Origin: Aspidiotus rigidus
Taxonomy: Eukaryota > Arthropoda > Insecta > Hemiptera > Diaspididae
DNA: 64,000 nucleotides
Reading direction: 5' to 3'
Assembly: GCA_035079385.1 (NCBI GenBank)
Contig: JAVHKY010000028.1
Location: 3,720,001 to 3,784,000 of the forward strand
Part shown: piece after piece, positions 23 through 20,786 of the stretch
Layout: each line of letters begins with the position of its first letter
Position numbering within the stretch: the stretch's first letter is position 1
The notes under the pieces: generated by a model
The model's input: only the letters and a program-made list of their open reading frames with translations
What the model was told of the DNA's origin: nothing
Database searches by the model: none
Program-made: the position numbers and the translations under genes

Positions 23-205
23 TCAACGACATTCACACCGACCAAGATCTTCATGAATGACAACACAAGCAGGTTTTTGTCCATATGGACACGAAAGTGA
101 TTGACAACCAATAGGATTCGGTGGACGACAATACTCAGCAGTTGTCGATAAGAATAAAAAGCACGAAAGAAATAATGTAAAGAGTATAAGAATACAATTA
201 TTCAT
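23..205 (-). CDS. Secreted six-cysteine peptide, array member 1
   Basis: Sixty-residue peptide: an N-terminal hydrophobic signal segment (about residues 1-23, cleavage likely after Thr-Ala) and a mature part of about 37 residues with six cysteines spaced x7, x4, x7, x9, x1, ending CECR. The start (MNNC) matches the MNN/MN starts of the other array members. It is the most downstream gene on the minus strand that lies whole in the window; its 3' flank is cut by the window edge. A TATAAA-like sequence lies about 35 bp before a conserved TCATT-type initiator candidate just 5' of the ATG. Function is unknown: secreted antimicrobial, symbiont-directed, venom or salivary peptide are all possible, inferred only from signal peptide plus cysteine framework. 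Confidence 0.8.
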   Translation of the reverse strand: MNNCILILFTLFLSCFLFLSTTAEYCRPPNPIGCQSLSCPYGQKPACVVIHEDLGRCECR

Positions 206-2165
206 TTTTTATCAAAGCTAAATGACGACAATTGAACCAAAAAGAAAATAAATTTATAGGAAACGTGTACGTAGAAGACCAGTTTATTGGCCGTTACTAA
301 AATGTGAATGTCGACGCTGGTGAAATAGGAAATCATATAATATTGTTTCATTCGAAAAAAATTAACCGTACTACGCAAATAATGTTTATCGTTGGAGCTT
401 TTTACATATTTTGTATTACTCCGTATATCGAGATAAACCATAACTTGCGATACAAAAAACGATTTCGGCAGTAGTCGGAATTACAATGAGTTCATTTTTT
501 TCTACTTTTTCTTCAAATTTTTAGAATGTCAGCTACAGTAAATTGACGTCAGCTTTAGTTTTAAACGAGATACCGGTACTTCGAAGTTCAGAAAAATTAT
601 TTCCTCGAATATTGCTATCGTTCATGCGTTAAAAATTTCTATAATATTTACAATTTTTCCGAATTTGATCACTCCTGTTGCACGTGATGTACAAGGATTA
701 CAAATTACAAACGAATTCATCCTGACAAATGACTTTAAACTCACAATTTCAACATAAAACAGTTTTGCTTTCACAACGTTTTACATTAACATTAAACCTT
801 AGGTTGTCCCAAGGACCTAATTGACCGTACGGGCTTACAGACAGCTCGACCTTTAAAGTCTACTAGGTTATTTAGTATTTGTAACTCAGAACTTGAACTC
901 TTCAGTAGGTCAAGGACTAATATGCTCGATTTCAGACTAACTAGCCAACGCCCACCCTTTCTTTGTCTAGTATAAGCCTAGTATTTAAATATGATTGAAG
1001 ATGCAAATCGTAGGCACCGTCTTCAATCACTCAAATTAAAAAAGTCAGTAACTTGAAAGGAAGAATCGATTCAAATGTGCCTAGTACGATATATTGCATG
1101 TAAGGTTTTTCACGCTCGTGAGCTCATTCATTCTCCTTCCCCATTCACCCATTCTTAGACTAGTGTAGCAAACTGCTTCATCAGTATTCAAAACAGCTGA
1201 GTGCACTGTATGTTGGGCTAACATTGTACTGCATGCCACAAAAGGACACAAATCTTGGAATTAGGGGTAGAGTTCAGATTTGTCAAAATTTTCTCAGGTC
1301 GTGAGGTCATGGTCGTACGGACTTACAGACATACCAACGTATTAATGGGCTCACCTAGAGCAAAGACAAGAAATGTCAAATTTCTTCAATTTTGCCTCCC
1401 TTCCGCATACTCCCAACATATTAGCATGCAGTGTAAATACTTTTCTAGTTTTGCATTTACTTTCATAAAAATCACGTTTATGTTCTCTTTCCATCCTCTC
1501 TAATAAGTTTTCGTTGCTCTAATGACTCGTCTCGGCAAAATGTTTGAAAAATCGTCTGACTGAATCGAAGAAATAGAGGCCCCGTTTCATGTATACTATA
1601 TTATGCTAGGCCATGCTCATGCCTAAATTGGTCTATTACATAGCCCAAACTTTGGTATGCCCACATATTCAGCATGATGACTGAAATTAGTCTCTAAAGT
1701 AGGTCAAAAACCAGCACACTGTATGTTAATGGCAATTAGCTGACAGGTTCACTCTCTCCATCAGCATTTCTTAGCCCAGTATGGGCCAGCATGTACTTCA
1801 TGTTAGGACTAACTAGCTGAGTATATTTGACTGATGGGTTCCTTTACTCCTTGTTCACCCTTTGGTTTTATAGTGACGAAAAGTCTGCACCAAGCATTTG
1901 TGCCAAACCTCTTTTTAATACCTTGCATGAGTCGATTGTCTTCATGGGTGTATGCTGAGGACGCATAGCTCAAAAAAAACAGTTGAAAAGAAAAAATTTC
2001 TTTATGATATCGACATGATTTCTGTTATATAAATGAAAGGATGAAAAAGCATTTCAACAAAATAAGGAATTAGACATTTTTTTTCTTACATAGTGAACAA
2101 GGTAATTTATCCATCGTCGGGTGACATTCGGCCACACTTGAATGACAACTTCAGGGCTAACGGGA

Positions 2166-2354
2166 TCAATGACATTCGCATTTTCGAAAATCTTCTCCCT
2201 GAATATAACAACCAGGCGAGGTTCCACTAGGACACGGATATGATTGGCAATCAGCAAACGTGTGACACATACGAATTGATTGTGCGGTCATCGACACGAA
2301 TAAATAGCTCGAAAGAAATAATACAAAGAGTAATTTGAAAATATAATTATTCAT
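2166..2354 (-). CDS. Secreted six-cysteine peptide, array member 2
   Basis: Sixty-two residues: signal segment rich in Leu/Phe (about 1-24) then a mature domain with cysteine spacing x5, x4, x7, x9, x1 and the motif CQSYPCPSGTSPGC. It is very close to members 3 and 4, so a recent duplicate. The coding exon is followed 76 nt after the stop by a splice donor (CTAT|GTAAG) and a candidate intron at 1969-2089. Upstream flank (to about 2660) is shared with members 3-5. Function unknown; extracellular disulphide-rich peptide is the safe description. Confidence 0.85.
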   Translation of the reverse strand: MNNYIFKLLFVLFLSSYLFVSMTAQSIRMCHTFADCQSYPCPSGTSPGCYIQGEDFRKCECH

Positions 2355-2659
2355 TTTTGATCGAAGTTAATTCTGAGGACAAGTAAATTTCAAGTACCTT
2401 CACCACAGTATTTGTCACAAATAAAATTTGAATCGTGAGGCCGGTAAAAATGGACGGTATTTTTTATTATTCTTTTATTCGAAAAAATTGACCGGACTAC
2501 GTAAATAATATTTATCGCTGAAACCTTTTACTTGTTTTGTACTCCATTACGAGATAAACCATAATTTGCGGCACAAATAATGAGTTCGATAGTAGTCGAA
2601 ATTGCGATGTTTTCTTTTTTTTTTTTTCGTTTCCTTGAAATATTTTAAATTTCAACTAG

Positions 2660-4172
2660 GTACTTTAGAACCTACCAACGCAGTAAATTGGTTCCAGAAT
2701 TACATGTGAATGAGGGAATTTTCATTTTTTTAATGAGGTCTTTCTGATTTCACTTCTCCATTTGCAGTTAGCTTTAGGAGGAATGTGTCAAAAGTTCAAT
2801 AAGGTCGTTTAATTTCTTCTTTTCTACAAAATCTAGGTGATGTGTACGAAAAGAAGTCCGACAGGCATAGTAAGGCGACATTTACCAAATCATCCCTCAT
2901 CTAATCGATTCCTGTGATGATTCCGAAAAGGATAAAGTTTAATCAAATTTCTCCATACTCTATTTCATGGAAAAACATTGGATCATGTGCTTTTGCAAAA
3001 AATACAATGTGAAGATATTCTATCAGTGTCGACTATATTGATACATCAATTTCGATTATATCGATACCCCAATTTTAAATATTATATTGAAACCTCAATC
3101 TCGATTATATCAACATATTGTTCTTCATTGTATCGAAACAACGATTCTATACTCGGTTGCTATAGCAAGTTTGACCTTCATTATAGGCTTATAAGATAGT
3201 GACCCAGTCAGTACACAATATTTTAGGCTAGCTAGCTTTTGTGCGCTCACTCACTCCGCTCATTCTACCTTCATGGTCTAGTATGAGCCTGATATACAAC
3301 ATTATAAGCTGACTAGCTTTAGGGAGCTTTCTCGCCCTGCTCGTTCACCCCCCCCCCCTCTTTTGTAGTCTAGTATAAGTCTAGTGTAATGAAATCCAAA
3401 CCTACTGCAGAAACCTGGTTTGAGCCTAGTATTATTAGGCCTAGTATAATGAAAGCTAAAGGTAAAAGTTTTTCGACCCTACAGTAGGTCAAGGTCATTG
3501 ATAAAGCCTCGTATGACGCAGATTTCCGACTGACCCCCAGCCCAAAGACTTATACATGTCAAAAAAAGGTAGCGACTGATTATATCGATTGTGTACCAGG
3601 CTGGTACAGATATTATATTTCATGCTGACTAGGTTCCGGGCTCATATGCTCTGCTCATTCGCCTAGAATAAAACTAATGTATTGTATGTTAGGCCCATAT
3701 TGTAATGAAGATTAAGCCTACTGTAGTACAACCTAGTATAATCCTAGTTTACTATATACCTATGTAACGCCAAGTATAATGAACGCCAGACGTTGAAATT
3801 TTAATTAGTCTTTAAAGTAGGTCAAGGTCATTGGTGACGTCATGAACTGTCTCGTGTCTCACAGAAATCCTAGCCCAAATACTCGCACATGTTAAAAAGG
3901 AATGAAAATCGCGGCTCACATCGTGAGCTGCTCGGAATTTTCTTCATTGACCTTGTGAATTGAGGCAAACAGAAAACGTGTTTTATGGGAGTTACCCCAT
4001 TATCATAATACTTACCTATAGCTCGGAGGACAAGGAAAACTTCTTATTGTCATCAAGACTACTGCTTTTGTGCTCGGAAATTACAACTGGACAAAAGTGT
4101 CGTTTTTAATCGACAACCAAATAGAACATACTAAAAACAATGTAACAAAAATTTCCTGGTTGGAGTTTCAAT
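2660..4172. repeat. Cassette spacer A (duplicated at 5000-7500)
   Basis: Non-coding spacer between members 2 and 3, full of short motifs such as GCCTAGTATAATGAA and TAGGTCAAGGTCATTG and TCGATTATATCGATA tracts. The same order of motifs recurs at 5000-5990 plus 6894-7500 between members 3 and 4, so this is a duplicated block. Parts recur at about 1600-1860. No coding sequence seen. Confidence 0.7.
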
Positions 4173-4285
4173 TAAGTAGAAATATTTTCCCCGTAATGAG
4201 TTTTATATTGACGAAAAGTCTGCACCAAGATTCGTGACAAACCTTTTTTCAGTTCCTTGCGTGAGTCGAATGTGCAGACGCATAG

Positions 4286-4410
4286 CTCAAAAGAAACAGT
4301 GTTAAAGAGGAAAAATTTCTTTATGATCTTGACATGATTTCTGGTATACATAAATGAGAGGATAAAAATGCATTTCATGAAAGAAGAAATTTAACTTTTT
4401 TTTTTCTTAC
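4286..4410 (-). other. Candidate 3'-UTR intron of member 3 (conserved in six cassettes)
   Basis: Minus-strand donor CTAT|GTAAGAAA and acceptor TTTCTTTTGAG|CTATG enclose 125 nt. Equivalent introns: 1969-2089 (121 nt), 7593-7718 (126), 8633-8740 (108), 13009-13130 (122), 20396-20512 (117). Length varies while both junctions hold, as expected for a real intron. All lie 76-92 nt after the stop codon. Member 6 keeps a GTGAG donor only. Confidence 0.6.
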
Positions 4411-4498
4411 ATAGTGAAAAAGATAATTTATCCGTCATCGCGTGACATTTGGGCACACTTGAAGGTAAATAATTATATCCACTTCAGGGCTAACGGGA

Positions 4499-4687
4499 TC
4501 AATGACATTCGCAAGTCCAAAAATCTTCTCCCCGAATATAACAACCAGGCTTGGTTCCTTTAGGACACGAATATGATTGACAATCAGAAGGTTTGTGACA
4601 GATCCGAATTGATTCTGCGGCCATTGATATGAATAAATAGCTCGAAAGAAACAATACAAAGAGTAATTTGAAAATACAATTATTCAT
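4499..4687 (-). CDS. Secreted six-cysteine peptide, array member 3
   Basis: Sixty-two residues with signal segment and six cysteines (x5, x4, x7, x9, x1), ending CECH. Nearly the same as members 2 and 4 in the signal segment (MNNCIFKLLFVLFLSSYLF) but with different charged residues in the C4-C5 loop. Start is 2333 bp from that of member 2, giving the basic cassette length. A donor (CTAT|GTAAG) lies 88 nt past the stop and a matching acceptor closes a 125-nt intron at 4286-4410. The 5' flank has the conserved GATA-like block at about 4831-4905. Confidence 0.85.
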   Translation of the reverse strand: MNNCIFKLLFVLFLSSYLFISMAAESIRICHKPSDCQSYSCPKGTKPGCYIRGEDFWTCECH

Positions 4688-4830
4688 TTCTGATCGAAGT
4701 TAATTCTGAGGACAAGTAAATTTCAAGTACCTTCACCACAGTATTTGTCACAAATAAAATTTGAATCGTGAGGCCGGTAAAAATGGACGGTATTTTTTAT
4801 TATTGTTTTATTTGAAAAAATTGACCGGAC

Positions 4831-4905
4831 TACGCAAATAGTGTTTATCGTCGAAACCTTTTGCTTGTTTTGTATTATATCGAGATAAACCGAAATTTGC
4901 GTCAC
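4831..4905 (-). promoter_or_regulatory. Conserved upstream block with paired GATA-like sites (member 3; repeated in all eight cassettes)
   Basis: About 150-200 nt before each start is a conserved block with CGCAAATA, GTTTATCG and, about 35 nt on, GAGATAAAC, i.e. two GATA cores in opposite orientation. Copies: 374-440, 2499-2575, 4831-4905, 8137-8210, 9151-9230 (second site mutated), 11826-11893, 13601-13665, 20928-20995. It stays recognisable in members whose coding parts have diverged, so selection is plausible. GATA factors drive insect fat-body, gut and haemocyte genes (general knowledge); binding here is inference. Confidence 0.5.
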
Positions 4906-5998
4906 AAAAAATGAGTTCGGTAGTAGTCGAAATTGCGATGTGTTCTCTTTTTTTTCTTCATTTCCTTGAAATATTTTAAATTTTCCTTTAGAATCTATCG
5001 ACGCAGTAAATTGACGCCAGCATTACATGTGAACAAGAGAATATTCTTCTTTTTCATGACGTCATTCTGATTTTACTTTTCCATCTGCAGTTAGCTTTAT
5101 AGGTATTCACCTTCATGGAGGAATGTGTCAAAAGGTCGTTAAATTTCTTCTTTCCTACAATCTTTCCTACAAAATCTAGGTAATGTGTACGGAAAGAAGT
5201 GGGATAGGTATATTAAGGCGAAATTTACTAAGTCGTCCCTCATTGATCAATTCTTGTGATGATTCTGAAAATACTCGTAATAAAGTTCAAGTAAATGTCT
5301 TCACGTCATGGAAAAACATGAAATCATGTAAAGGTATACCTTCCGGCGTTTGCGAAGAAATACTCGTACAAAGTAAAGATATATCAATGTCGATTATATC
5401 GGTACGTCAATCTCCATTATATCAATATATTGATCTTCATGGTATCAAAATATCGATTCTATACTGGTCTGCTATAGTAAGTTTGACCTTCATATAGGCT
5501 CATGAAATAACCTAGTCAGTATAAAATATTTCAGGCTAACTACCTTTTGCGGGCTCACTCGCTGCGCTCATTCTCCCCCTTCATGGTCTACTATAAGTCT
5601 GGTATAAAATATTTTAAGCTAACTAGGTTTAAAGAGCTTACTCGCTCCGGTGGCACCGCCCCTCTCTCTTCGTAGTTTAGTATAGGTCTGATATAATGTA
5701 ATTGGGCCTATTATAATGGAGCCAAACCTACTGCAGAAGCCTAGTTTAGGCCTAGTATTATTAGGCCTAGTTAGTATGAGCCTAGTATGCTGTATATCAG
5801 GCGTAGTATAATGAAGGCCAAAGGTAAAAATTCTTCGACCCTAGAGTACGTCAAGGTCATCGATGACATCATAAAGCGTCGTGTGACGGAGATTTCAGAT
5901 TCACCCCCAGCCCAAAGACATATCTAAGTACGTATATCAAACACAAGGTGTAATAGTGATTGATTATATCGATTGTATACTAGACTGGTATATTATAT

Positions 5999-6893
5999 GG
6001 AAGTGATTATACGTAGGTATACTACCTACGGCTAAAACGTTATTCGTAGGTATAGTACAATGACTCACGAATTATCTTGTTGCCCTATATTATCATGTCT
6101 TGTGACAAATATTTCTGTATTGAAGTATGAAGCAGGAATTATCTTGTAGGTAGTAACTTCTCGCAGCGTCTCTGAAGCTCAATGAGCGTGGATGCACATG
6201 CTCTTTCACAAAAGCTTGAAGGCCCTGCAAGAACGCAGGCAGTACATGAGTATTGAAGATGGAGGCGTTCGCGAGATGTACGAAACTGAGGCTTGCACAT
6301 ATGACCGTCGAACCACGCAGTGCACCTATACATTTTCTTGCAACCACCAAGCACCATGCCGACATATCCTGCTGAAGCGGGAACACTACACTGGCTCCCT
6401 TTGTTCTGTGTTTTCCGAGGCTCAATTCCACCCACGGTATTACAAGAGTACTCATGCTTCTACCAGCTAGTCAACACCCTCCATTGATGCTGATGTTGTG
6501 GATGATGTAGTTCTAGATGATGTAGACTCGTGCGCGCCAAGAACCTTGAATACTCACGAGAAGTACCTACAATTTGATCTCACCCGTCATGATGAACATA
6601 GCCACCCTGGTATCGTGTCATGGCACTGAGCAATTCAACTCATACTTGGCAACCATGAAGGAGATGGAGAAGTTGATTAGATCAGGCTCCGATATTCGTC
6701 CAATGCTATTTCAAGTGTTGGTTCTGCGAGAAGTTAGTACAAATAACGTTTTACCTGTAAGGATACTACCTATGAATAACGTTTTAGCCGTAGGTATACA
6801 ACTACTACCTACGGATAACGTTTTTAGCCGTAGGTATGCTACCTACGAATAACGTCTTAGCCGTAGGTACTATACCTACGAATAACGCCAACC
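5999..6893 (+). mobile_element. MULE-type element with 9-bp target duplication
   Basis: Element of 895 bp flanked by a 9-bp direct repeat ATATTATAT (5990-5998 and 6894-6902). The homologous cassette spacer holds the same 9 bp once at about 3610-3618, with matching flanks: a preserved empty site. Both ends carry short palindromic subrepeats of the form TAGGTA-n-TACCTACG followed by TAAAACG (one or two at the left, four at the right, about 6735-6885). Nine-bp duplications and a SWIM-finger transposase remnant inside fit the Mutator-like superfamily. Confidence 0.75.
6160..6760 (+). pseudogene. Transposase C-terminal remnant with SWIM zinc finger
   Basis: The plus frame opening at 6192 encodes CTYTFSCNHQAPCRHILLKR, a SWIM-type zinc finger (C-x-C-xn-C-x-H) with the typical PCRHI core, followed by an FHPRYYKS stretch that corresponds to the RW..Y region of ZSWIM/MULE-derived proteins. 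Frames then shift: a KYLQFDL piece near 6565 and an SCHGTEQFNSYLATMKEMEK piece from about 6610 lie in different frames. The catalytic domain is absent. It is a dead remnant carried by the surrounding element. Confidence 0.6.
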
Positions 6894-7805
6894 ATATTAT
6901 ATTTCATACTGACTAGGTCTCGGGCTCACAAGCTCTGCTCATTCGCCTAGAATAAAACCAATATATTGTATATTAGGCCCATTGTAATGAAGGCTAAGCC
7001 TACTGTAGTACAACCTAGTATAATCCCAGTATACTATACGAGATCTTACACCACGTATAATGAACATGCCATAGGTTGAAATTTTTATGAGTCCCTAAAG
7101 TCGATCAAGATCATTGGTGACGTGATAAAGTTTCTCGCGTCTCACAGATTTTGCACTGAATTTCAGCTCTCTAACATACCCGTGTCAAAAAAGAAATAAA
7201 ACTAACTCGGAACCCACATGGTTAGTTTCTCTGGGTTTCCTTCATTAAACTTGAATTGATGCAAATAGGAAACCTGTTTTATGAGAGTCACCCTCTTATC
7301 ATATACTTATAGCTTGGGGGGCAAGGAAAACTTCTTTTTGTCACCAAGACTACATTTTTGTGCTCGGAAATTACAACTGGATTGAAGTGTCGTTTTTAAT
7401 CGACAACAGAACGTCAATACCAAATAGAATATACTAAGAACAATGTAACAAATAATTAATTTCCCCATAGGATTGCCGATTAAATAGAAATATTTTCCGC
7501 CTAATGCGTTTTATATTGACGAAAAGTCTGCACCAAGTATTCGTGACAAACCTTTTTTAATTTCCTTGCATGAGTCGAATGTGCAGACGCAGCTCAAAAG
7601 AAACAGTGTTAAAAAGAAAAAAATTTCTTTATGATCTCAACATGATTTCTATTACATAAATAAGAGGATAAAAATGCATTTCATCGAAATAAGAAATTTA
7701 ACATTTTTTTTTTCTTACATTGGAAAAGATAATTTATCCATCATCGCGTGACATTTGGCCACACTTGAATGACAATAATTATAATCCGCTTCAGGGCTAA
7801 CAGGA

Positions 7806-7994
7806 TCAATGACATTGGCACTCCCGAAGAGCTTCTCCTCGAAAATAGCAACCAGGCGAGGTTCCATCAGGACACGGATAAGATAGACAATCAGAAGGCT
7901 TGTTACAGACCCGAACTGATTCTGCGGCCACCGACAAGAATAAATAGCTCGAGAGAAATAATACAAAGAGTAATTTAAAAATACAATTATTCAT
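7806..7994 (-). CDS. Secreted six-cysteine peptide, array member 4
   Basis: Sixty-two residues, signal segment then six cysteines (x5, x4, x7, x9, x1), ending CQCH. Its cassette is 3307 bp from member 3; removing the 895-bp MULE-type insertion (5999-6893) and its 9-bp duplication leaves about 2.40 kb, close to the 2.33-kb spacing of members 2 and 3. Donor 87 nt after the stop, intron candidate 7593-7718. Compared with members 2 and 3 the loop before CxC has changed (YFRGEALRE), the kind of variation expected in a diversifying peptide family. Confidence 0.85.
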   Translation of the reverse strand: MNNCIFKLLFVLFLSSYLFLSVAAESVRVCNKPSDCLSYPCPDGTSPGCYFRGEALRECQCH

Positions 7995-8819
7995 TTCTGA
8001 TCGAAGTTAATTCTGAGGACAAGTAAATTTCAAGTACCTTCACCACGGTATTCGCCACAAATAAGATTTGAATCGTGACACTGGTAAAAATGGACGGTAT
8101 TTTTTTTATTATTTTATTCGAAAAAATTGACCGGACTACGCATTACAATGTTTATCGTTGAAACTTTTTACTTGTTATGTATATCGAGATAACCCATCAT
8201 TTGCGGCACAAAAAATGAGTTCGGTAGTGGTCGAAATTGCGATGTATTCTCTTCTTTCTTCTTCGTTTCCTTGAGATATTTTAAATTTCAACTACCTACT
8301 TTAGAACCTACCAACGCAGTAAATTGGCTGTTTTATGGGAGTCATTCTATAGCTCGGAGGGCAAAGAAAACATCTTACTGTCATCAATACTGTTTCTGTG
8401 CTCGGAAGAACGACCGGACAAAAGTGTCGTTTTTGATCGATAACAGAACGCCTATACCAAATAGAATCTACAAAGAAGACTGTGACAAATGGAATTAATT
8501 TCTTGATAGGAGTGCCACTTAGGTGGAAATATTTTCCCCGTAATGAGTTTTATATTGACGAAAAGTCTGCACCAAGATTCGTGACAAACCTTTTCTCAGT
8601 TCATTGAGTGAGTCGAACGTGCAGACGCATAGCTCAAAAGAAACAGTGTTAAGAAGAAAAAATTTCTTTATGATCTTGACATGATTTCTGTTATACATAA
8701 ATGATGGATAAAAATGCATTTAACTTTTTTTTTTTCTTACATAGTGAAGAAGATAATTTATCCATCATCGCGTGACTTTTGGCCAAACTTGACTGACAAT
8801 AATTATATCCACGTCAGGA

Positions 8820-9005
8820 TTAACGGGGTGAACAGTCGCACTGCCTAAAGCCTCGAAGATCACAATAAGGCGTGAAACCACTAGGACACTGATAATATCG
8901 ACAATCAGTAGAATCACGACACGGTGTAGATGATTTCCCGGCCGTCGTCGTGAATAAATAGCTCGAAAGAAATAACACAAAGAGTAATCTGAAAATACAA
9001 TTCAT
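8820..9005 (-). CDS. Secreted six-cysteine peptide, array member 5
   Basis: Sixty-one residues, signal segment (about 1-23) and six cysteines (x5, x4, x7, x7, x1), ending CDCSPR. Signal segment is still close to members 2-4 while the mature part has diverged strongly (CRDSTDCRYYQC). It lies only about 1 kb from member 4, so the long spacer of the 2.3-kb cassettes is missing here. Donor 79 nt after the stop and intron candidate 8633-8740. In the upstream block the second GATA-like site is altered (GATGG). Confidence 0.82.
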   Translation of the reverse strand: MNCIFRLLFVLFLSSYLFTTTAGKSSTPCRDSTDCRYYQCPSGFTPYCDLRGFRQCDCSPR

Positions 9006-10119
9006 TTCTGATAGAAGTTAATTCTGAGGACAAGTAAATTCCAAGTACCTTCACCACGGTATTTGGCACAAATAAAATTTGAATTGCGAATATGGTAAAA
9101 ATGAATGGTATATTTTTTATTATTGTTTTTTTTGGAAAAAATGACCAGACCACGCAAATAATGTTTATCGTTGAAACCTTTTACTTGTTTTGTATTACGA
9201 GTACATCGAGATGGATCATAATTTGTGGCTCAAAAAAATGAGTTCGGTAGTGGTCGAAATTGCGATGTGTTCTCTTTTTTTTCTTCGTTTCGTTCAAATA
9301 TTTTAAATTTCAACTAGGTACTTTAGAACCTATGAAAATTGACGTCAGCACTACATGTGAACAAGATTGCTTCAAATTTCAAAAACATTATTTCTCCGAT
9401 TATTGCTATCGCTCATGAGTTAAAATTTCTATCATAAGTATTTGAATTAAAACTTTTCCAAATTTGATCATTTTTCAAGCAGTATTTCCTGATATACTTA
9501 CGTGGAATACGAGGATTAAAAATTACGAACAAATTCATCTTAACCAAATTTCAAAATAAGACAGATTTGCTCTTATACAACTATCTCATTTTAACATCAC
9601 ACCTTGGTTGCCCTATGGACTTTGTTGGCCTCAGAAAAACTCATGTCCGCCTTGAAAGAAGGTCACAACATGTTGTCCACAGGTCGAAATTGTTACAAGT
9701 CCCGAAAGTAGGTCAAGGTCATAAAGCGTCTCGCGTCTTACATATTTTCCACCAAGACCCTTCCCAAAGACATTAACAAGTGTCAAAAAGAAATAAAACT
9801 CGCAGCCTACTTGGTGTGCTGCTCGGAGTTGCCTTCATTAACCTTGTTAATTGAGGCAAACAGGAAATGTGTTTTATGGAAGTCACTCTCCTATCTTATA
9901 TGGCACGGTGCTCAAAATTTTGTTTTGTCGACCGGTGCCCTTCATTTTTCTTCAAATTACCCCCATCTCCCATAAAACAGGTTCCCTGTTGAAAGACAAA
10001 ACTTGCAGCCTACTTTGTGAGCTGTTTGGAGATGCCTTCAACAACTTAATTGAGGCAAAGAGGAACCTGTTTTATGGGAGTCACTTGACAACATAAAGCT
10101 TGAGAAAATAAAACAATAA

Positions 10120-10374
10120 GGCTTTTCCCGCAGGTAAATTCATTCGACTCCGTCGTTGCCCTTATCAAACGAAACTGCAGAGAAAACAGAAAGAATGACA
10201 AGTTTTGTGAGGGTTTCCCCAAAAATGTATGGTCTTGCTAAGATCCACAAGCCGATTTTATCTCTCCGTTCAGTGATATCATCTATAAATGAGAGGGTGT
10301 GCGCGACGTTGCAAGCCATATTACAAATAATAAGGAAAAATATTATGGACATGCACAATTTTTGTTATGTTTGA
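10120..10374 (+). pseudogene. Penelope-like reverse transcriptase fragment
   Basis: Reads MYGLAKIHKPILSLRSVISS and then an ATLQAILQII helix, matching the early RT motif of Penelope-like elements (YGLPKIHKP..PLRPIVSSI). Only this motif block is left; catalytic and endonuclease regions are missing. Its wording differs from the elements at 22.1 and 40.6 kb, so it is a separate subfamily. Confidence 0.6.
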
Positions 10375-11129
10375 GAAATTACGGATTTAGAACCTGCCGT
10401 ACAGGATGAAGACCTCAAATCCAGAGAATTAATTTTGATGGTTCATATCCTGTACTCCTGCTCCTTGAAATTATTGGACGTATTCCATGTACCTCTAGTA
10501 GTCAGATATGCACATAACTGAGTATTGGTGATATCCGGCCTACCGCTTAATTCTTCATCTGATTCTTCGTCAGACGAATCTAGTCAATAAAATCACTAAA
10601 ATCACGCTCTTCATCCATGATATTATCGAAAAATTGGACGAGAAAAAATAATGAGATAAAAGTATAACGCCGCGCTATTGTACAAGAAGGAAATATAGAT
10701 AGTCGCGATACTTACGCTGAAGTGATTCACTTATCACTCCAAACCAAAACCAGGAATTTCCATGCAAGACTGAAGTGACGATGATTTTTTTCTCGGGAGG
10801 AAGATAATAGTTAGTGTGCGTGTAAGGTAATAATAATTAGTGTGCATAATTTGTAATATATATCGTGCAGTATGCAAATATTGCTTCTTGATCCTGTTCG
10901 GTTGCCTAGTGCTCAAATGTCCTTCTGTAGTATGCTAAATATTTGTTCCCTTATTTATATCATCTACAAATTCACCAACATATCATCTCTCTCAATTCAT
11001 AGCTGATATTTTGAGCTGTATGAGGAATAATGACGTCCTATTCGTTTATCTGATGACCTTCCGCAGATATTATCGTCAATTAAAATAGAATCAGGAGATG
11101 AGCTGGTTTCTTTCAAACCCATAATATAT

Positions 11130-11270
11130 AGCTCGAAAGTCAAAATTTTTTCAAATTTCTCTTCCATCATAATAAATATAGCTTGGATGTCAAAATTTTT
11201 CCAAGGCCCTCTCCTATCGTACACAGCTCAGAGGTGGAAATTTTTCCAAGTCTCTCGTTTTTCCGGGTGG
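11130..11270. repeat. Relic copies of the 45-bp satellite
   Basis: Three degenerate units of the form ATATAGCTCGAAAGTC followed by AAATTTTT-CAAG and CTCTCCTATC match the satellite that forms the large array at 50.9-52.8 kb. They sit just 3' of array member 6 and replace the usual 3' part of its cassette. Confidence 0.6.
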
Positions 11271-11481
11271 CGACCAGCCTCTTTTTGCAAATTACCCTCC
11301 CGCCCCCACAGTGCAATTTCCCTTTTGAGAAATTTCTTTGTGTTCTTGAAACGATTTCTATTAGAAATGAGAGGATGAAAAAACAGTTTGTAGAAAAACA
11401 TTTTTTTTTTTTTTCTCACATAGTTAACAAGATAATTTAACCATCACCGTATGACCTTTGGCCAAACTTAATTGATAATAA

Positions 11482-11679
11482 TTATTTGGGTTTTTGACAC
11501 ATGCACCGCCCAAGATCACCTCCTCCAAAAACGCAAACAGGCCTGAATCCTGTAGAACACGGAAATGATTGACAAGCATTCGTAGAATTCGGATCACAAT
11601 AAACAGGCTTTGATCCTTCGGTCAACGATACGAATAAAAAGCACAAAACAAAGAGTAAATTAAGAATACAAGTATTCAT
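11482..11679 (-). CDS. Secreted six-cysteine peptide, array member 6
   Basis: Sixty-five residues starting MNTC, with signal segment and six cysteines (x7, x4, x7, x9, x1), ending CMCQKPK. The x7 first loop and the AT-rich 5' leader (TAAATTTATTTTC about 35 nt before a TCATT site) group it with member 1 rather than members 2-5. A weak donor (CTAT|GTGAG) is 62 nt past the stop, but the usual downstream acceptor has been displaced by a repeat containing relics of the 45-bp satellite (about 11130-11290). Confidence 0.8.
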   Translation of the reverse strand: MNTCILNLLFVLCFLFVSLTEGSKPVYCDPNSTNACQSFPCSTGFRPVCVFGGGDLGRCMCQKPK

Positions 11680-13222
11680 TTTCGATCAAAGTTAAATGAG
11701 GACAATTAAACCAAAAAGAAAATAAATTTATGCAAAAAGGTACATATGTACAAGACCAAGGTATTAGCCTCTACTAAAATGCGAATCATGACACTACATT
11801 GTTTTATTCGCTGAATTAGCCGCACTACGCAAATGATCTTTATCGTTGAAACTTTTTACATGTTTTGTATATCAAGATAAACCATTATTTGCGGAACAAA
11901 AAATTAGTTCGATAGTAGTCACTTTTTTTTTTCCTTTTCAACTCATAGCTTGATAGCTTCAGAGCAACTAGCTCACAGGTTCACTCTCTCTGCCAATATT
12001 TTTTAGCTCATTATAAGCCTAGTGCGCTCACTATTCCGAGCCTTTGTTTCGCCTCGGGCAAATCAACTTGGTGACGCCTCATGTCAAGGAAAAACTGTTA
12101 ATTTTCTCTTCGTTGCTTCAATTCATAAGTTTCAGGATGCATCTGAAGAAATTTATAAGTTCCCCGCGTAAAATTTTCTGTCCCTTTGCCAGCCCTCGTG
12201 TTCGGCATCCCTGGCCGTCGTCCGGTCTGCCTACTCCTCTCCACAGCCCCGTGTATATGTTAGGACTGACTAACTGCATATGTTTGACTGACGGACTCCT
12301 TCACCCCGCTCGTTCGTCTTCCACCTCCACTCGGATGTAATCGAAATTTTCCAGTCTGAAGATCACGCGAATGCGTAACGCAATTTCAAGCTCAAACCCA
12401 GCACAAAGACATGATTCACATGAAAAAAACTCGGTCAAATAGTTTATTTTATGTTTTAAATATTCGGTCAAATTCAGAACTCGAATACACTCTCTGTTCT
12501 ACCCTTTCAGAAGGAGGTAACAGTTTCCTCAAGTCCGAATTCCTCACTCAAAGGACTACCAAGCCTTCAAAACCAGTTCTGTGTGAATATTACGGTTATA
12601 TTACCTCGTTTATTTAACGAACCTATAACTTCTGTTTGGGATTTAGAGGTATGTACATGATTTTCAACTCGTACCTCTGATTGAACTTTGTTCAAATTTG
12701 AAAAATTTCTGCGCCCGACATTTTTGAAGAGGAGCAAGAAAAACTTCGTACTGTCACTAGAACTATCCTTTTCGAGCTTGGAAATGATTACCGAACGAAA
12801 ATATCATTTTTAATCGCCTACAGTCAATACCAAATAGAATCTGCTACGAAAACTATAGCAAATAATTTACTCATAGCAGGGCTAATTGAGTAGAAAAGTT
12901 TTTCTCGTCTTTGCAGTTTATATCGACGAAAAGTCTGCACCTTGCATCCGTGATTAACCCATTTGAATAAGTCGAATGTATTCATAGTTCTATGCTGCAG
13001 ACACTCAGCTAAAAAGAAACCGTCGAAGAGGAAAAATTTATTTATATTCTCGACATGATTGTTATTATAAAGGAGAGGATGGAAAAGTATTTCATCGAAA
13101 AAATAAATGGAACAAATTTTTTTTTCTTACATAGTTAACAATACTTTAACCATCACCGTAGGACCTTCGGCCAAATTTCACTGACGATAATTAGATCCAC
13201 GTCAGCTTCGGGGCGAGTCGGG

Positions 13223-13426
13223 TCAACGACATGCACACTGACCATAATGTACTCCCTGAACAATAAAAACCGTTCCAACGCAAGTAGGTTTGGTTTCATT
13301 TAAACACACAAGTGGTTGACATTGATCAGAATTCGAACAAAACCGAGTTAATTGTGCGTTCATCGAGATGAATAAAAAGCTCGAAAAAAATAATACAAAG
13401 AGTAAATTATGAATACAATCATTCAT
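13223..13426 (-). CDS. Secreted six-cysteine peptide, array member 7
   Basis: Sixty-seven residues starting MNDC; signal segment then six cysteines spaced x5, x4, x7, x14, x1, ending CACR. The C4-C5 loop is the longest in the array (14 residues, hydrophobic at its start), which would change an exposed loop. Donor (CTAT|GTAAG) 92 nt after the stop; the intron candidate 13009-13130 ends in TTTCTTTTTAG, the best acceptor in the family. Upstream GATA-like block at 13601-13665 is intact. Confidence 0.82.
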   Translation of the reverse strand: MNDCIHNLLFVLFFSSFLFISMNAQLTRFCSNSDQCQPLVCLNETKPTCVGTVFIVQGVHYGQCACR

Positions 13427-14689
13427 TTTTGATCATTCGAAGTTCAATGTGGACAATTAAATCGAAAGAAAAATTGATTCGTGGGAAACGTACTCACAAA
13501 CGAGTCCAAGATATTATAGCCGTTACTAAAATGGGAATCGTGACGCTGGTGAAATAGGAAGGTAATTGTAAGAGTTTTATTCAAAAAAAATTGAACGTAC
13601 TACGCAAATAAAATTTATCGTTGAAACCTTTTACATGTTTTGTATTTAGAGATAAATCATTATTTCCGGCACGAAAAACGAATTCGATAGTGATCTTTTT
13701 TTTTTTTTTTTATCTTTTCCTTCGATTTTTTAAAATGTCAACCAATTTGAAACCTACCTACGCAGTCAATTGAACAAGACTACACAGAAAAATTATTTTC
13801 ACAATTATTGCTATCGTTCATGAGTCAAAAATTTTTAGAATATCTAAAATCGTTTTTTTGTTTTTTTTTCGGATTTGATCATTTTTTAGGTAGTAAACCC
13901 TGATGCACGTGCTGGTATTCGAAGATTAAAAATTAGGAACAAATTCAACCGAACAAACGATGTGACGCTGGACTCACGATTTCAAAGAAAAAGATAAAAA
14001 AAAAAACCTGTTTTGCTTTTACAACGTCTTATATTAACATTACACCTTAGGTTGCTCTAAAGACTTAATTGGCCTCGGAAAAACTCATGGCCACCTTTAA
14101 TGAAGGTCAGAACTTGGGAAGTCAAATTCTGGTAGCTGATAGGCCTTTAGGGTCAAACTGTGGTGTCTTAATAGATCTCTAGCGACAGAAGCTGGCTTGA
14201 TTGAAGTGCACGAGGGTTTGAGTAGTACGTATAGTGTCTCTTGGGACTCGGGAAAGGGCAATTGTTGAGAATTTCCGCGAATTATTTCTCCAAAGTCATA
14301 AAATAGTAATAAACGAATAAAGCTTGGTTTCCATTTGGTTTCAGAATTGATAAGATGATGGCGGTTTACTTCATCGCGATGATTGAGGTCGAAGAAGAAA
14401 ATATTCACCCGGGTTGAGAGGAGATTTATTAACTTTATCGTATTATTTAAATTTCCAGGCGCGGATCCACGGAGGGAAATGGAGGAAATTCTCCCCCCTA
14501 ACCCTCCCAAAAAAACAAAAAGCAAAAAAAAGTCTAGTATCGAAGAAAATGTAAAAAAAAAAAAAAGATCCTTTAGACTTTTAGCGGGATCCTTTTTGTT
14601 GGGCGTACTTTCAGGAAATTTTCTTCCGCAAGCGCGGGTGCGAGGGAGGTTGAGGACGTCACGGAGAAGGAAGGGGGACTTGGAAAAAT

Positions 14690-14830
14690 TCCTACCCCCG
14701 AGCTATATATGATAGGAGGGGAAGTTAGAAAAATTCCTACTTCCGAGCTATATATGATAGTAGGGGGACTTGAAAAAATTCCTACCTCCGAACTATATAT
14801 GATTGGAAGCGGACTTGGAAAACTTCAGCC
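14690..14830. repeat. Relic copies of the 45-bp satellite, inverted
   Basis: Three units read GAGCTATATATGATAG, GGGGACTTGGAAAAATT and CCTACCTCCGAGC, the reverse orientation of the satellite at 50.9 kb with CCTAC in place of CGACT. They lie just outside the left end of the 14904-16089 element. Confidence 0.6.
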
Positions 14831-14903
14831 TCTAGGAGACTCGGGACAGCTGGTTCCCCGCTGCCATTGTAGTCCTGCAATGGCATCTACCCATTTTTTT
14901 TTT

Positions 14904-16089
14904 AGGATGTGTCTATTTGCAGGTACTGTACCTACGCGTAAAACGCTATGTGCAGGTACTGTACCTACGAGTAAAACGCTATTTGCAGGTACTAATTATT
15001 TTATTTAAAAAATTGTATAACATAAAACTTTTGAGACAGTAAGAACGAAATAGACTACAATATTGAAAAAAATACGAAATTAAACATTTGATATCACAAA
15101 ATTAATTTTTCCTTCTGTGGCTTCGCCGAAGAGGTAATGAAGGGGGAGCGCTAACTACATCTTCTGTGGGGCAAAGTTTACGTCTTTTTGGTGGAAGTAT
15201 TGTGGAATCATAGGTGTTCTTGCGTTTTTCTGCTTGTCGGTCGCTCTGGGATTTATTGAAAGTGCATAACTGGCTCGCCACATGCTTTGGCCTCCCCCTA
15301 GCTTTAACTTTCTTCCTGAACTTCAAGATGTCTGAACTTGATTGGGGTTGTTCTTCAGGCATTGCAACATCTCCTGTTGACCCACTTGATGACTCCTTCA
15401 GAGAAGTTTCCGGAGGAGATTTTGCTTTCATTTCCAAGATGGACTGTGAAAAAAAAACTAGCAATGCTCGTACCCGACCTGATGACGCCTTCAATATCTT
15501 TTAATGCCTTAAGGTAGGTCTTGAATGTTCGGTCCCATGGTCAGATGTAAGACTAGCAATGGTCAAAACAGTAGGCAAGACCGTATTATATTTGACTGTT
15601 TTACTCAGAATTTCAACGTCTAAAGGGTCTTCATCCATGAAATCATCTACAACATCGTCGATACACTCATTTTCCATGTCACAGAGGGATGATGTTTCAA
15701 GGTTCTCGTTGTTTCGCTTATGATAACGAGGGTGGAATAGAAGAAGATCAAAAATTGCACCTGGCGATTGGTGACTTTTATGTGAATTTCTGCAGTTCTG
15801 TAACTACTATGGAATAAAACTGAGCAATTCACTGAACAGCATCTTATGAACATGAAGAAGTTTCTAAATGTATTTTTCACGCTGAACACTATGCCGTTAA
15901 CTGTTTTTCGCTATCACATTGGAGTCTTGAGTAATTGGCGTTTGAAAATTCAAAAACTGTCAATCTGTGTTTTTCTAGAGTTCATCAAGAATCGAGCTTA
16001 TAAATATAAGTTCATGATTTGTCAAATGCATTAGTACCTGCAAATAGCGTTTTAGGCGTAGGTACAGTACCTGCAAATAGACACATCCT
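14904..16089 (-). mobile_element. Second MULE-type element with palindromic subterminal repeats
   Basis: Inverted ends start AGGATGTGTCTATTTGCAGG (left) and end with its complement (right). Each end carries a palindromic subrepeat GCAGGTACTGTACCTACG followed by TAAAACGCTATTTG, twice at the left (about 14920-14993) and once at the right (16033-16075). The pattern is the same as in the 5999-6893 element. Both ends abut runs of T (10 and 8), consistent with a poly-T target duplication of 7-9 bp. A transposase tail remnant is inside. Confidence 0.65.
15102..15494 (-). pseudogene. Basic AT-hook tail, likely transposase C-terminus remnant
   Basis: A 130-residue frame rich in Ser, Lys and Arg with a single AT-hook core (KARGRPKH, about residues 65-72) and basic tails (PPKRRKLC and LRRSHRRKN). 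AT-hook ends like this follow the SWIM finger in many MULE transposases. No catalytic or zinc-finger part is present. Its place between the inverted ends of the 14904-16089 element supports the assignment; it could instead be an unrelated captured exon. Confidence 0.4.
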
Positions 16090-16199
16090 TTTTTTTATTA
16101 TTTCCCCTCCCAAAGTGATCGTCTGGATCCGCGCCGGAATCTCACTGCGTAAAGCGAAACCGTCCGATAAGCCAGATCGACCAAATATCTTAGTCAATT

Positions 16200-18020
16200 T
16201 TGAGTAAATATCGACCAAAAATAGACTGAGCGATCGCTCTTGATTAGTGACCAATAAGAGACCAACTTTTTCAATCGATTTACTTCCGTTCCTTTCCACC
16301 ATATTTAGACCAACTTGGACGAAATTTTGACAGAAAAAATTAGTCGATCTGTAGGTGATGTAAGAACTATAAAATGGTGTATCCTCAGTCATTGGTTACA
16401 TTTCCTCAACAATTGACTATATTTCGACCATTTTTGACCCACACTGAGAGAAGAGAATAGTCTTGATGACTAGAAAAAAAGTGTCAACTCGAGACAGCAG
16501 CCTTTTTTTTGTCTATTTGATCATTTTTTCAGTTATTTTAACTGTAAAATCTAGTCATAGTGAATGAAAATAGGTAACATATCTCAAGTTCACACTTTTT
16601 TTTTAGTCACCAACTCCTCTCAGTACAAAAAATATTCGATTTCTGGGGAAACTTGACGACATAAAATGGTCCCTTGTAGTCAATATTCAATCAGTGTCAA
16701 CTAAGCACCATAATTAGATCAATTTTGACGAAAAAGATCGGTCAATTTCTGGGCAATGTTGACAATATAAAATAGCCCATCGTAGTCTATATGCAAGCGA
16801 TATTGACAGAATTCTACAGATAGACCACTTTTGAAAAAAAAAATAGGTCAATTTCTGGGCAATAGAGACGCCATAGAACGATCTCTATTTACATAATATT
16901 AACAGACCACTTTCAACGGGAAAACCCAGTTTATATCTGGGCCTTCCGCGAATGAGAAAAGAAACGAATAAAGTTAGCAATCTCATTAACAGGGTTATAT
17001 TGAGACGAGTGCAATTTTGGTCTGCGAGTTTGCGAACAACATGACAGTTGATTCCCTCCAAATGTCTGACCAGAATCGATTGGAAATGGACCATGATATG
17101 TCCTAGGAGTATCTATGCAGAAATTGACTGAAAATTTTGCTCAAAATTGAGTGACTGTGGTTCGCACAAGAAGAGACCGAGAAAAAGAGTAGTTGGTAGA
17201 TATTGAGGACAAATCGACTGAAAATGTACCAAGATATGTCCCAGGAGTATCTGCCCAGAAATGGACTAGAAATGTTGGTCAAAATTGAGTGCCTGGGTGG
17301 CTCTCACTTTACACCAAAAAAGAGAGTAAAACTATTGGTAGATGCCGAGGACAAATCAACTGGAAATGGACCAAGATATATCTTAGAAATATCTGCTTAC
17401 GAGTAGAAATTGACTGGAGATTTTGATCAAAATTGAGTGACTGTGGTTCGCGTGAGAGTAGGCAAAAAAAAAAAAGAGAAAGTGTTGGTAGATGTTGACG
17501 ACAAATCGACTGAAAATGGACCCAGATATGTCCTCGGCATATCTGCCCAGAAAGACTAGAAATTTTAATCAAAATTGAGTGACTATGCGTCTCGTCCGAT
17601 AATTCTCATCTTAGACCAAAAAAGAGAGTAAAAATATCGATAGACGTGGAGGAAAAATCGACTGAAAATGGACCAAGGTATCTCCCAGAATGATCGACTG
17701 AAAATCTTAGTCAAAATTGAGTAATAAATACAATATCAGACTAGAAAACGAGGAAAAATTCCAGTCTGTATTGACAGTATAACTGCCAAAAATGGACCAA
17801 ATTGTATATTCCGCATAATTATAAAAAATCAACGAAAATTTATAGTCAAAATTTCATAGGAATAGTATCTGACCAACAATCAACTGAAATAAATAGTCAA
17901 AAATTTGGTCGATTTATCTCAGAAATTTAATAAAAATCGACCATTTTCCGATGGGATCATAATATTTAGTCCATTTCCAATCGTACGACAAAAATCCAAC
18001 CAACATTGACCATATAGTGA
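16200..18020. repeat. Field of degenerate tandem repeats, about 142 bp unit
   Basis: From about 17086 to 17720 a unit containing CAAAATTGAGTGACTGTGGT and GGTAGATGTTGACGACAAAT recurs with CAAAATTG at 17142, 17280, 17428, 17570 and 17712 (steps 138-148). More diverged GACCAATTTTGAC-like pieces extend through 16200-18020. All frames are broken; no gene seen. Confidence 0.65.
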
Positions 18021-19660
18021 TGGTCGAATTGGCTTATCAGGGACTACGCAGTGTCAAAATTCTTATTCTCTTATGTGTATTTTTAATTTATTTCTTTCAG
18101 TTTTTTATGAATTTGAAAAGTATTGCGACGTGTATTGGCTTAACAAAGTACGTATTTCGTAGAGTTTGCAGCGGTGTCCCGCATTATTTATTCGACGAAA
18201 GATACAATATAAAACAATAAAAACATATAGTTTGTGTATTACGAAGATACTTTGGCATACACGTATAATTTATTTTGAAGATAAAGTCGATTTTAATCAA
18301 ATTTTTGAAGTTAATAGTAATTAGCTCTGATGATGTATACATTAGTCTTAAAACAAATTGAAACTTGGTCTTTTGAAGGGATATTTTCAGATAAATCGCA
18401 AGGGGAAAGAAATGCTGTAGATTCCTCAGATATTCTGAATCAGTACCTCTTTCCCTGATTACGATGTCGGGACGCCAATAGTCTCCCCCATGTCGTCTTC
18501 ATTACTTCACTGTGAACGCCTCAACTAGGTAATATCCAATTTACCTTGTACACCTACGTATCTATTTTGTAGAGTCTGCTAAAAATCGTAATATTCTGGT
18601 TAATTTTCGTGAGACATTATTGATGAATGGTACATACATGTTTGAAAATTTAGTCTCTACAACATGATGTGTCGGACGAAATTAGCTATACCTACAAAGA
18701 TAGTTTGAAAATACTAGAAATGCCTGCTAGGTATCGGGAGCGTACCTAGTTAATTACTCAATTAATTAATTTGAACGATTTGCCGAGACCTTGATTCGTG
18801 CGCTATTTCAACTTTCGTAGAAATGAAGGACGTAGGCCCACGCACGAAGAAGAGCAAAAACGTGCTGGGAGGGATCATAGAGAGGACGAATTATAGTCTA
18901 CTGTTTACTTAGGATTCGGTCTTGTTTACCTTATGCAATGCTTTGTTGTTTATAGAGTGTCTTTCGACCACCTTTAAAACTGGATGCGTAAGTATTCCGT
19001 TTACACAATCCTTTTCAAAACGGAATTATTTACACGGAGCGTGGAACGCAGATGAGCGCACACTGATTTGTATTATACGGGAGATGATCCGGTGGATAAG
19101 AAGGATTATCGGAAGCGTGCAGTACAGCGAGGCCAGAGAGTTTGTTATACAACGCGAATGTCTGATAATTCGAAATTAACGAACTGATAAATGAATAGTT
19201 GTTAACATTACTGATGCACGAGACGAAGAGAGAGAAGTCAATCATTTCGATTCAATTTTGTATGTAATACTACTTGCCCTTTGCCTCACTTCTTCTACGA
19301 GTATTGTCTCACTCCCGCCAGTAGACAACGCAAACTTTCTTAATTGCGAAAGGAGAAGTTTCGTTAGAGAAGCAGAAGCAGTACTGCATAGTCGTCAAAT
19401 TCGACAATCGACGGTAACTAAAATTTGAGAAACAGAAAAGGAAACGCATCTTTTTCTATCAAAGGTATTCGCATTTATTTGTACAACTGTGTATCTTCAC
19501 AATAATATGAGAAAGATACTAAAAACTTGGATTTATCGGAAAATTTTCTTCTTTCTGTGTCGACGTTATTTTAATTTCACTTTTCCATTTGCACTCAGTT
19601 TTGGAATTTGTCGATAACAAAACGTCGTCCGTTTCAATTGTACTTTCGGTTACGGTGTTG
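18020..19660. other. No gene seen
   Basis: Single-copy-looking AT-rich sequence with only short open frames of random character. No splice-supported exon, RNA gene or clear repeat found. Confidence 0.4.
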
Positions 19661-19781
19661 AATCTGACTCCCTTCAGATCCCGTATTTTTTTCAAAATTA
19701 TCTACGTGAAAAGACGATTTCAAAAATATACTTCACGTAGATTATTTTGAAAAAAATGCGAGATTCAAAGGGAGTCAGATT
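19661..19781. repeat. Foldback element / hairpin
   Basis: AATCTGACTCCCTT at the left and AAGGGAGTCAGATT at the right, with most of the intervening arms also complementary (TTTTTTCAAAA against TTTTGAAAAAA, TCTACGTGAA against TTCACGTAGA). About 121 bp in all; likely a MITE. Confidence 0.7.
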
Positions 19782-19912
19782 ACTTTCATTAAATTAAAAA
19801 TTCTTTGATAGCAGTGCCACAAGTAACGGCTTTGCTTCTTTAGCCTGCATTCATGATGAACCTCTAAAATTCCTCCGAATCTGTCTCGAACATAGGTGGG
19901 TACTACCTCGTG

Positions 19913-20225
19913 TCATTTGACGAAGAATAAAGAATATAGTGTATGAAGGTCCTGAAGACGAAATTCGAGAAGAAGGAAGAAGAGGTTATGCGAAAAAAGT
20001 ATAGAGAAATAGATTGGAAATTCCGGGAATTGAGCTGCCGGAGCGAGGAGATTGCCAGTTACCGTAATTAGGCGGAACTTCCGCTGTTTCAGAGAAAAAA
20101 CTGAAATGAGGGCTCGTAAAAGTCCAGGAGTCATTTTGAGTGATACAGATTGAATGGTGTTCAGTAATTTCAAGGTGGATTTGATTGTTTGGCCATACAT
20201 TGGGGCACTCTAGTCGAGTTGTGAC
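19913..20225 (-). pseudogene. LINE reverse transcriptase C-terminal fragment
   Basis: The minus frame reads PMYGQTIKSTLKLLNTIQSV and then a SLKMTPGLLRAL stretch, matching the thumb region of Jockey/R1-type non-LTR retrotransposons (LDYG..Y....S.LK.LD.IQN..LR..TGA.RTSP). A stop interrupts just upstream and the frame decays after about 60 residues. Family membership beyond Jockey/R1-like is not claimed. Confidence 0.55.
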
Positions 20226-20588
20226 TGGTTATTACTTTCATTTGATTGAAGAAGTAATTTACGGTCACCTTTGACAATATAATGCTGGCGTACAGGAATT
20301 GAGCTTCGCTCATATACCGCAATATTAGGTGAGAATCAGCTACATCTATCTGCGTCAGTCGACTTTCTTTGCAGGCCTATACTCCAGACACTTAGCTCGT
20401 AACAATTTAAAAAATTCCTTGTAATTTCTACATGACTTTTAATACTTGTACGGATGACAGGATGAAAAAAACAGTTAATCGAGAACAGAAATTGAATATT
20501 TTTGTTTCTTACGTAGCCTAGATAACAATAATTCGAATATCGACGTATGGCATTAGGCTAAATTTGGTTGACAATCTTTGTATCCGAG

Positions 20589-20786
20589 TCAGCGCGAATG
20601 TGGTGGCCGACATACACAATGAGCCGCCGAATCGTCTCCCTGATAAACACAAGCAGGCCTCATTCCACTTGGACACGGAAATGATTGACAACCAGCAGCG
20701 CTCTGACAAGATTCTGCGGTCGTCGATGTGAACAAAAAGCACGAAAGGAGTGATACAAAGAGTAATTTAAGAATAAAATTATTCAT
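20589..20786 (-). CDS. Secreted six-cysteine peptide, array member 8 (outlying)
   Basis: Sixty-five residues from the MNNF start, which matches the family; a longer reading frame opens 18 codons upstream but those residues have no counterpart in other members, so the inner Met is chosen. Signal segment then six cysteines (x5, x4, x7, x10, x1), ending CVCRPPHSR. It is 7.4 kb from member 7, separated by repeats. The downstream intron (20396-20512, donor 76 nt past the stop) and the upstream block (20928-20995) are both kept, so the whole cassette is ancestral to the family. Confidence 0.82.
   Translation of the reverse strand: MNNFILKLLFVSLLSCFLFTSTTAESCQSAAGCQSFPCPSGMRPACVYQGDDSAAHCVCRPPHSR

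Follow-up and report, generated by a model that had tools for sequence, protein, structure and literature searches.

The array and its eight genes

The left part of the 64,000-nucleotide stretch analyzed here (C28:3720001-3784000, hereafter the window) carries a tandem array of eight genes, m1 to m8, for small, putatively secreted peptides with six cysteines. A first-pass annotation had described eight same-strand open reading frames (ORFs), each with a signal-like segment, a six-cysteine framework and one coding exon, and we could confirm these points at the positions it gave; the ORFs are intact from ATG to stop, lie on the minus strand, encode 60-67 amino acids (aa) and are each a single-exon precursor. 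They are listed below with the numbers of residues between successive cysteines (loops 1 to 5), scores against the Pfam family Nodulin_late, and the mean predicted local distance difference test (pLDDT) value where a mature part was modelled.

23..205, minus strand: m1, gene for a 60-aa six-cysteine peptide, putatively secreted, loops 7-4-7-9-1
2166..2354, minus strand: m2, 62 aa, loops 5-4-7-9-1; Nodulin_late 26.5 bits (cutoff 30.4)
4499..4687, minus strand: m3, 62 aa, loops 5-4-7-9-1; Nodulin_late 25.8 bits; mature part modelled, mean pLDDT 87.5
4688..4742, minus strand: block directly upstream of m3, nearly invariant among m2-m5
7806..7994, minus strand: m4, 62 aa, loops 5-4-7-9-1; Nodulin_late 23.6 bits
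8820..9005, minus strand: m5, 61 aa, loops 5-4-7-7-1; Nodulin_late 24.9 bits
11482..11679, minus strand: m6, 65 aa, loops 7-4-7-9-1; without a Pfam match
13223..13426, minus strand: m7, 67 aa, loops 5-4-7-14-1; Nodulin_late 21.3 bits
20589..20786, minus strand: m8, 65 aa, loops 5-4-7-10-1; without a Pfam match; mature part modelled, mean pLDDT 85.1

Loops 2, 3, and 5 are constant in the window members (4, 7, and 1 residues, each in 8/8), while loop 1 has five residues in six members and seven in two, and loop 4 ranges from 7 to 14. The x4 spacing between cysteines 2 and 3, which had been set against the CxxxC of CS-alpha-beta folds, is thus present in all eight. Automatic alignment gave 12 invariant columns, five of them cysteines; with m1 aligned by hand on its first cysteine, six mature cysteines are invariant across the eight (signal cleavage, near residue 24, was set by eye). 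The framework occurred in 8 of 176 window ORFs (40-120 aa, starting with ATG), exactly m1-m8, and in none of the 4719 ORFs from 30 windows simulated from the window's trinucleotide counts, with a pattern that allowed 5-7 residues in loop 1 and 4-16 in loop 4.

The gene copies lie within duplicated units whose flanks match at about 66-84% identity over up to about 1.9 kb, as expected of the tandemly duplicating set that had been proposed. Because the flanks match in DNA too, we regard m1-m8 as homologous. Between -54 and +6 in the alignment, the mean pairwise difference among m2-m5 is just 0.038, and the upstream portion of this block is probably a 5' untranslated region or promoter.

Relatives on other contigs and divergence of the mature peptides

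A genome search with m3 (genome G000, 441,100,917 bases in 102 contigs, among them C12, C13, C15, and C28) returned 13 matches, namely the array's eight genes plus five weak hits. Four of the weak hits are full-length ORFs that combine a signal-like segment with the framework of the array. Scans of 90 kb of C12, 40 kb each of C13 and C15, and the 30 kb left of the array, in which loops 1-4 were allowed 3-10, 3-5, 4-14, and 2-18 residues and loop 5 was fixed, revealed 12 more intact relatives: seven on C12, four on C15, and one on C13. No member was found in the 30 kb left of the array, which stops at the window's left edge, nor in a further 40 kb adjoining the clusters on C12 and C15. The family thus numbers no fewer than 20 intact genes, spread over four sites, a lower bound because the genome-wide search rests on one query. 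Across all 20 genes, loop 3 has seven residues and loop 5 one, loop 2 has four residues in 17 and five in three (among the 12 relatives, nine have x4 and three x5), and loop 1 has five in 15; since the scan varied loop 3 and fixed loop 5, only the uniform length of loop 3 carries information.

The clusters are related to one another. Profiles of the window and C12 members matched with an hhalign probability of 98.2 (E 5.1e-14, a single-pair comparison), and the window profile retrieved all 12 other members at E ≤ 0.0011 from a small set of fetched ORFs. The C13 member has signal-coding DNA that resembles that of the window members (best E 1.6e-8). The C12 (L016-L022, C12:158527-212689) and C15 (L029-L031, C15:6664731-6684592) clusters have their own signals, starting with MKI and MNS, respectively; within each, upstream DNA is related and both strands are used. 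Between the first two C12 members, identity is 96% across 944 bases. Beside intact C12 members, an ORF at C12:162747-162962 (plus strand; L017) has the signal start of that cluster without the cysteine framework and looks like a frameshifted relic.

The rapid divergence of the mature part that had been suggested is evident among m2-m5, where mean divergence was 0.112 in the flanks, 0.121 in signal codons, and 0.275 in mature codons. The mature part has therefore diverged 2.5 times faster than flanking DNA, a level reached by none of 463 flank windows of equal size. In the pair m3/m5, the flanks differ by 0.102 and the mature part by 0.352. Within the mature part of m2-m5, cysteine codons diverged by 0.059 versus 0.316 for the other codons, the latter with 0.42, 0.30, and 0.23 at the three codon positions; TGT is used in 8/8 genes at three of the six cysteine positions. 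Across all eight genes, the ratio of nonsynonymous to synonymous differences (pN/pS) was 0.60 in the signal (bootstrap 0.39-0.94); at the non-cysteine codons of the mature part it was 1.26 (bootstrap 0.99-1.75).

Selection for diversity, combined with homogenized flanks, explains this pattern. Three results weigh against a purely selective account: codon-model likelihoods did not distinguish the mature part from omega 1 (no omega above 1), the mature part shows raised synonymous or third-position divergence as well, and in the distant copies m1, m6, m7, and m8 the ORF and its near flanks are about equally divergent. Homogenization of the flanks or a mutation rate that is higher locally may therefore have a share in the pattern.

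The same codon test, together with a mature part less conserved than its flanks in m2-m5, could also be expected if the ORFs were not genes at all, being decaying frames carried along by segmental duplication. We consider this hardly credible. When m3 was evolved neutrally, at rough rates set by hand after flank divergence, the ORF and framework were kept in 826 of 20000 runs for close copies and in 16 of 20000 for distant ones, versus 8/8 in the real array; since neutral runs rarely keep them, their retention is not drift. Of 44 indels within the ORF alignment, 33 had lengths divisible by three, versus 23 of 118 outside (pairwise counts from pairs that are not independent, with an ORF block that takes in a few columns beyond earlier stop codons). 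The nearly frozen cysteine codons and the 12 further intact relatives likewise argue against decay.

Source insect and neighboring features

The window also contains, at about 45974-47483 (minus strand), a two-exon gene of the chitin pathway, UDP-N-acetylhexosamine pyrophosphorylase, whose single GT-AG intron spans about 85 bases (47035-47119). Its protein is 65% identical to that of the mealybug Planococcus citri, its best named relative, and 69% identical to a closer database protein. In a tree of 22 hand-chosen rows, the window sequence grouped with the 69% protein (support 99/97), in a nine-row clade with P. citri (100/100), and the aphids, whitefly, and psyllid fell outside this clade. 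Because of this grouping, the source is most likely a hemipteran, specifically a scale insect not closely related to P. citri, which bears out the arthropod origin assumed earlier. The first-pass annotation had named transposon or contaminant DNA as what would undo its reading; no sign of either was seen for the array, which lies with the intron-bearing insect chitin gene inside a 9.3-Mb contig.

Several repeats were noted besides. A 510-aa ORF at 40621-42153 (plus strand) matches RVT_1 and, below cutoff, GIY-YIG, and it looks like a Penelope-type element. By eye, a fragment at 22284-22853 (plus strand) is related to it, and DNA adjoining two C15 family members resembles the same stretch. A 45-base minisatellite occupies 50900-52823 (42.8 copies), similar 45-base units occur at 52900-53061 and 14672-14826, and at 17074-17584 a unit of about 142 bases is repeated in tandem, with 3.6 copies.

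Affinities and possible roles of the peptides

None of the eight window members passes the cutoff of any Pfam model. Five match Nodulin_late (PF07127), a plant family that shares the signal plus six-cysteine layout, at 21.3-26.5 bits, below the gathering cutoff of 30.4, and three have no match. Their mature parts alone do not match this model, and their own signals joined to shuffled mature parts still scored 15.0-17.1 bits in 4 of 10 trials. One relative, C12:179776-179934, clears this cutoff with 35.4 bits; of the 10 relatives (among the 12) run against Pfam, six others matched the family below cutoff and three did not match it. This peptide scored 18.7-21.1 bits in 4/4 shuffles that kept its cysteines, gave no Nodulin_late match in 4 full shuffles, and reached 20.4 bits with its mature part alone; it also matches the EB module (E 7e-4). 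Plant late nodulins have an intron between signal and mature part; the present genes, in an animal genome, do not.

The best match among solved structures in 3/3 profile searches was chickpea NCR13, a nodule cysteine-rich (NCR) peptide of the kind with which legumes keep root-nodule bacteria under control, with E 0.43 and 1.2 for two window profiles (A1 and A2) and 0.0048 for the C12 profile (A4). By its published description (PDB 8ULM, 7TH8; PMC11637438), NCR13 has the pattern C-x5-C-x4-C-x7-C-xn-C-x-C and a short helix followed by a two-stranded sheet. Its cysteines, at 4, 10, 15, 23, 28, and 30, give loops 5-4-7-4-1, which agree with C12:179776-179934 in all five loops and with six of the eight window members in loops 1, 2, 3, and 5 (loop 4 in 0/8). 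Because the loops of NCR13 are those of this relative, the framework, loop 4 apart, is by its spacing already known from plants. Hence the earlier likening to plant nodule peptides is borne out, while its description of the framework as new and of the family as unrecognized is not supported. NCR13 differs in having 32 residues, a net charge of +8, and a loop 4 of four residues, versus 7-14 in the near-neutral window members, and homology between the two is not established at E 0.43 and 1.2. Further, legume NCR peptides are encoded by genes of the inverted repeat-lacking clade (IRLC) that are expressed in nodules, and the present family belongs to an insect genome. The window profile and m2, each searched against 5.8 billion proteins, gave no relative, from plants or elsewhere.

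We favor convergence over descent from legume peptides, as the Nodulin_late match covers little sequence, is led by the cysteines, and is in part shared by the EB model. The alternative, which we think very unlikely, is that a late-nodulin/NCR-type or defensin-like gene entered an ancestral scale insect from its host plant, probably in intronless form, and then radiated. Consistent with such an origin, C12:179776-179934 passes the plant model, scores 14-17 bits above its cysteine-keeping shuffles, and has all the NCR13 loops, and plant-derived genes are reported from a whitefly (cited in PMC12510726). However, the other 17 members tested with Pfam (8 window, 9 relatives) were below cutoff or unmatched, the protein search found no relative, and horizontally transferred genes in five surveyed scale-insect genomes are described as mostly bacterial (PMC12510726). 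A captured late-nodulin-like gene that lost its intron, radiated genome-wide, and now serves in endosymbiont control or as a mimic inside the plant seems equally improbable to us.

The mature parts of m3 and m8 are predicted to form a beta-alpha-beta-beta unit. Structure prediction, one of the checks suggested earlier, accordingly gave a defensin-like order in both models but no significant fold match, with unrelated chains ranking as high as or above CS-alpha-beta defensins and scorpion toxins. The CS-alpha-beta peptides, a type marked by disulfides 1-4, 2-5, and 3-6, differ in their CxxxC, which is absent from this family (x4 or x5 in 20/20).

Among insect peptides, the closest parallels in kind are aphid bacteriocyte cysteine-rich (BCR) peptides, which are described as small hemipteran peptides with a conserved signal, a divergent mature part, and six cysteines, and whose genes are bacteriocyte-specific and partly clustered (PMC3574423, PMC9604261, PMC6594739). 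The BCR resemblance that had been proposed is a general one. BCR4, with cysteines at 17, 21, 25, 32, 34, and 48, reportedly has its own fold and its CxC at cysteines 4-5 (PMC9604261), unlike the CxC at cysteines 5-6 in 8/8 window members; BCRs are reported only in aphids and were compared here by described cysteine order, not by sequence. At least four of six tested BCR peptides were antimicrobial in vitro, killing Escherichia coli (PMC6594739). The bean bug Riptortus is reported to have 97 genes for cysteine-rich secreted midgut proteins, orphans with at least six cysteines, some linked to symbiosis (PMC3653873); midgut expression is established there, and our comparison is by description. 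Finally, soft scales, including the Ericerus pela genome, are reported to lack known antimicrobial peptide (AMP) families and BCR peptides (PMC11084805). No report of the present family was found for scale insects in the literature searched.

The family is of a known design, spread over several clusters, real, and conserved. On the strength of the BCR, bean-bug, and soft-scale literature, we tentatively prefer a microbe-directed role, with symbiont control first, for defensin-like peptides convergent on legume NCR peptides. The array is then one of several clusters in a lineage-specific family that counts 20 genes or more, most likely of a scale insect. Each precursor joins a conserved signal to a mature part of roughly 32-50 residues, probably a small beta-alpha-beta-beta unit with three disulfides and NCR13-like spacing. 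Local duplication would multiply the genes, and the mature surface would diversify between nearly frozen cysteines. The peptides may be secreted into a symbiont-bearing compartment or the hemolymph and, by analogy with legume NCR and aphid BCR peptides, may bind or permeabilize microbes or check their growth. Across members, the mature parts carry net charges between about -2 and +5, a mixed repertoire.

Several observations count against this preference. Net charge in the eight window peptides lies between -1 and +3, close to neutral and unlike that of NCR13; m3 as a single query did not retrieve NCR13, which the window profiles reached at nonsignificant E values; and neither model had a significant fold match. 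Moreover, the family is known here from genes, from which we infer the tissue of expression, and those genes could equally be salivary. Salivary effectors, injected into the host plant to mimic or block its defensin-like or signaling peptides and diversified by an arms race with it, are the main rival and come close behind symbiont control; we regard them as possible, if rather unlikely. The insect group feeds on sap, the framework is plant-like, and a conserved signal with a variable secreted part is also described for the aphid KQY/KHI salivary cassettes (PMC7495047). In that source, though, the example gene KQY1a is large and many-exoned, unlike these compact single-exon genes, and the portion available mentions no cysteine framework; for the present family the salivary reading draws on sequence traits.

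Inducible humoral peptides against bacteria or fungi, replacing the AMPs reported missing in soft scales, are a more doubtful alternative. The defensin-like order predicted for m3 and m8 would suit them, and an unrecognized family could have been overlooked in the soft-scale survey (PMC11084805). That report concerns soft scales, though, and the source insect is not established as one. NF-kB-like sites (two consensus forms) were found within 350 bases upstream in none of the eight window members and none of the 12 relatives, a missing consensus that is weak evidence against induction. Small cysteine-rich secreted families that evolve fast also occur in reproductive, developmental, and defensive-secretion roles; nothing specific points to such ligands here, and we give them slightly less credence still than capture from a plant.

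The 20 or more fast-diverging, defensin-like genes of this probable scale insect are candidates for how such insects deal with microbes or with plants. The member that passes the Nodulin_late cutoff with all NCR13 loops offers a sharp test of whether peptides for symbiont control have converged on a single design in plants and animals or, less likely, were transferred between them.

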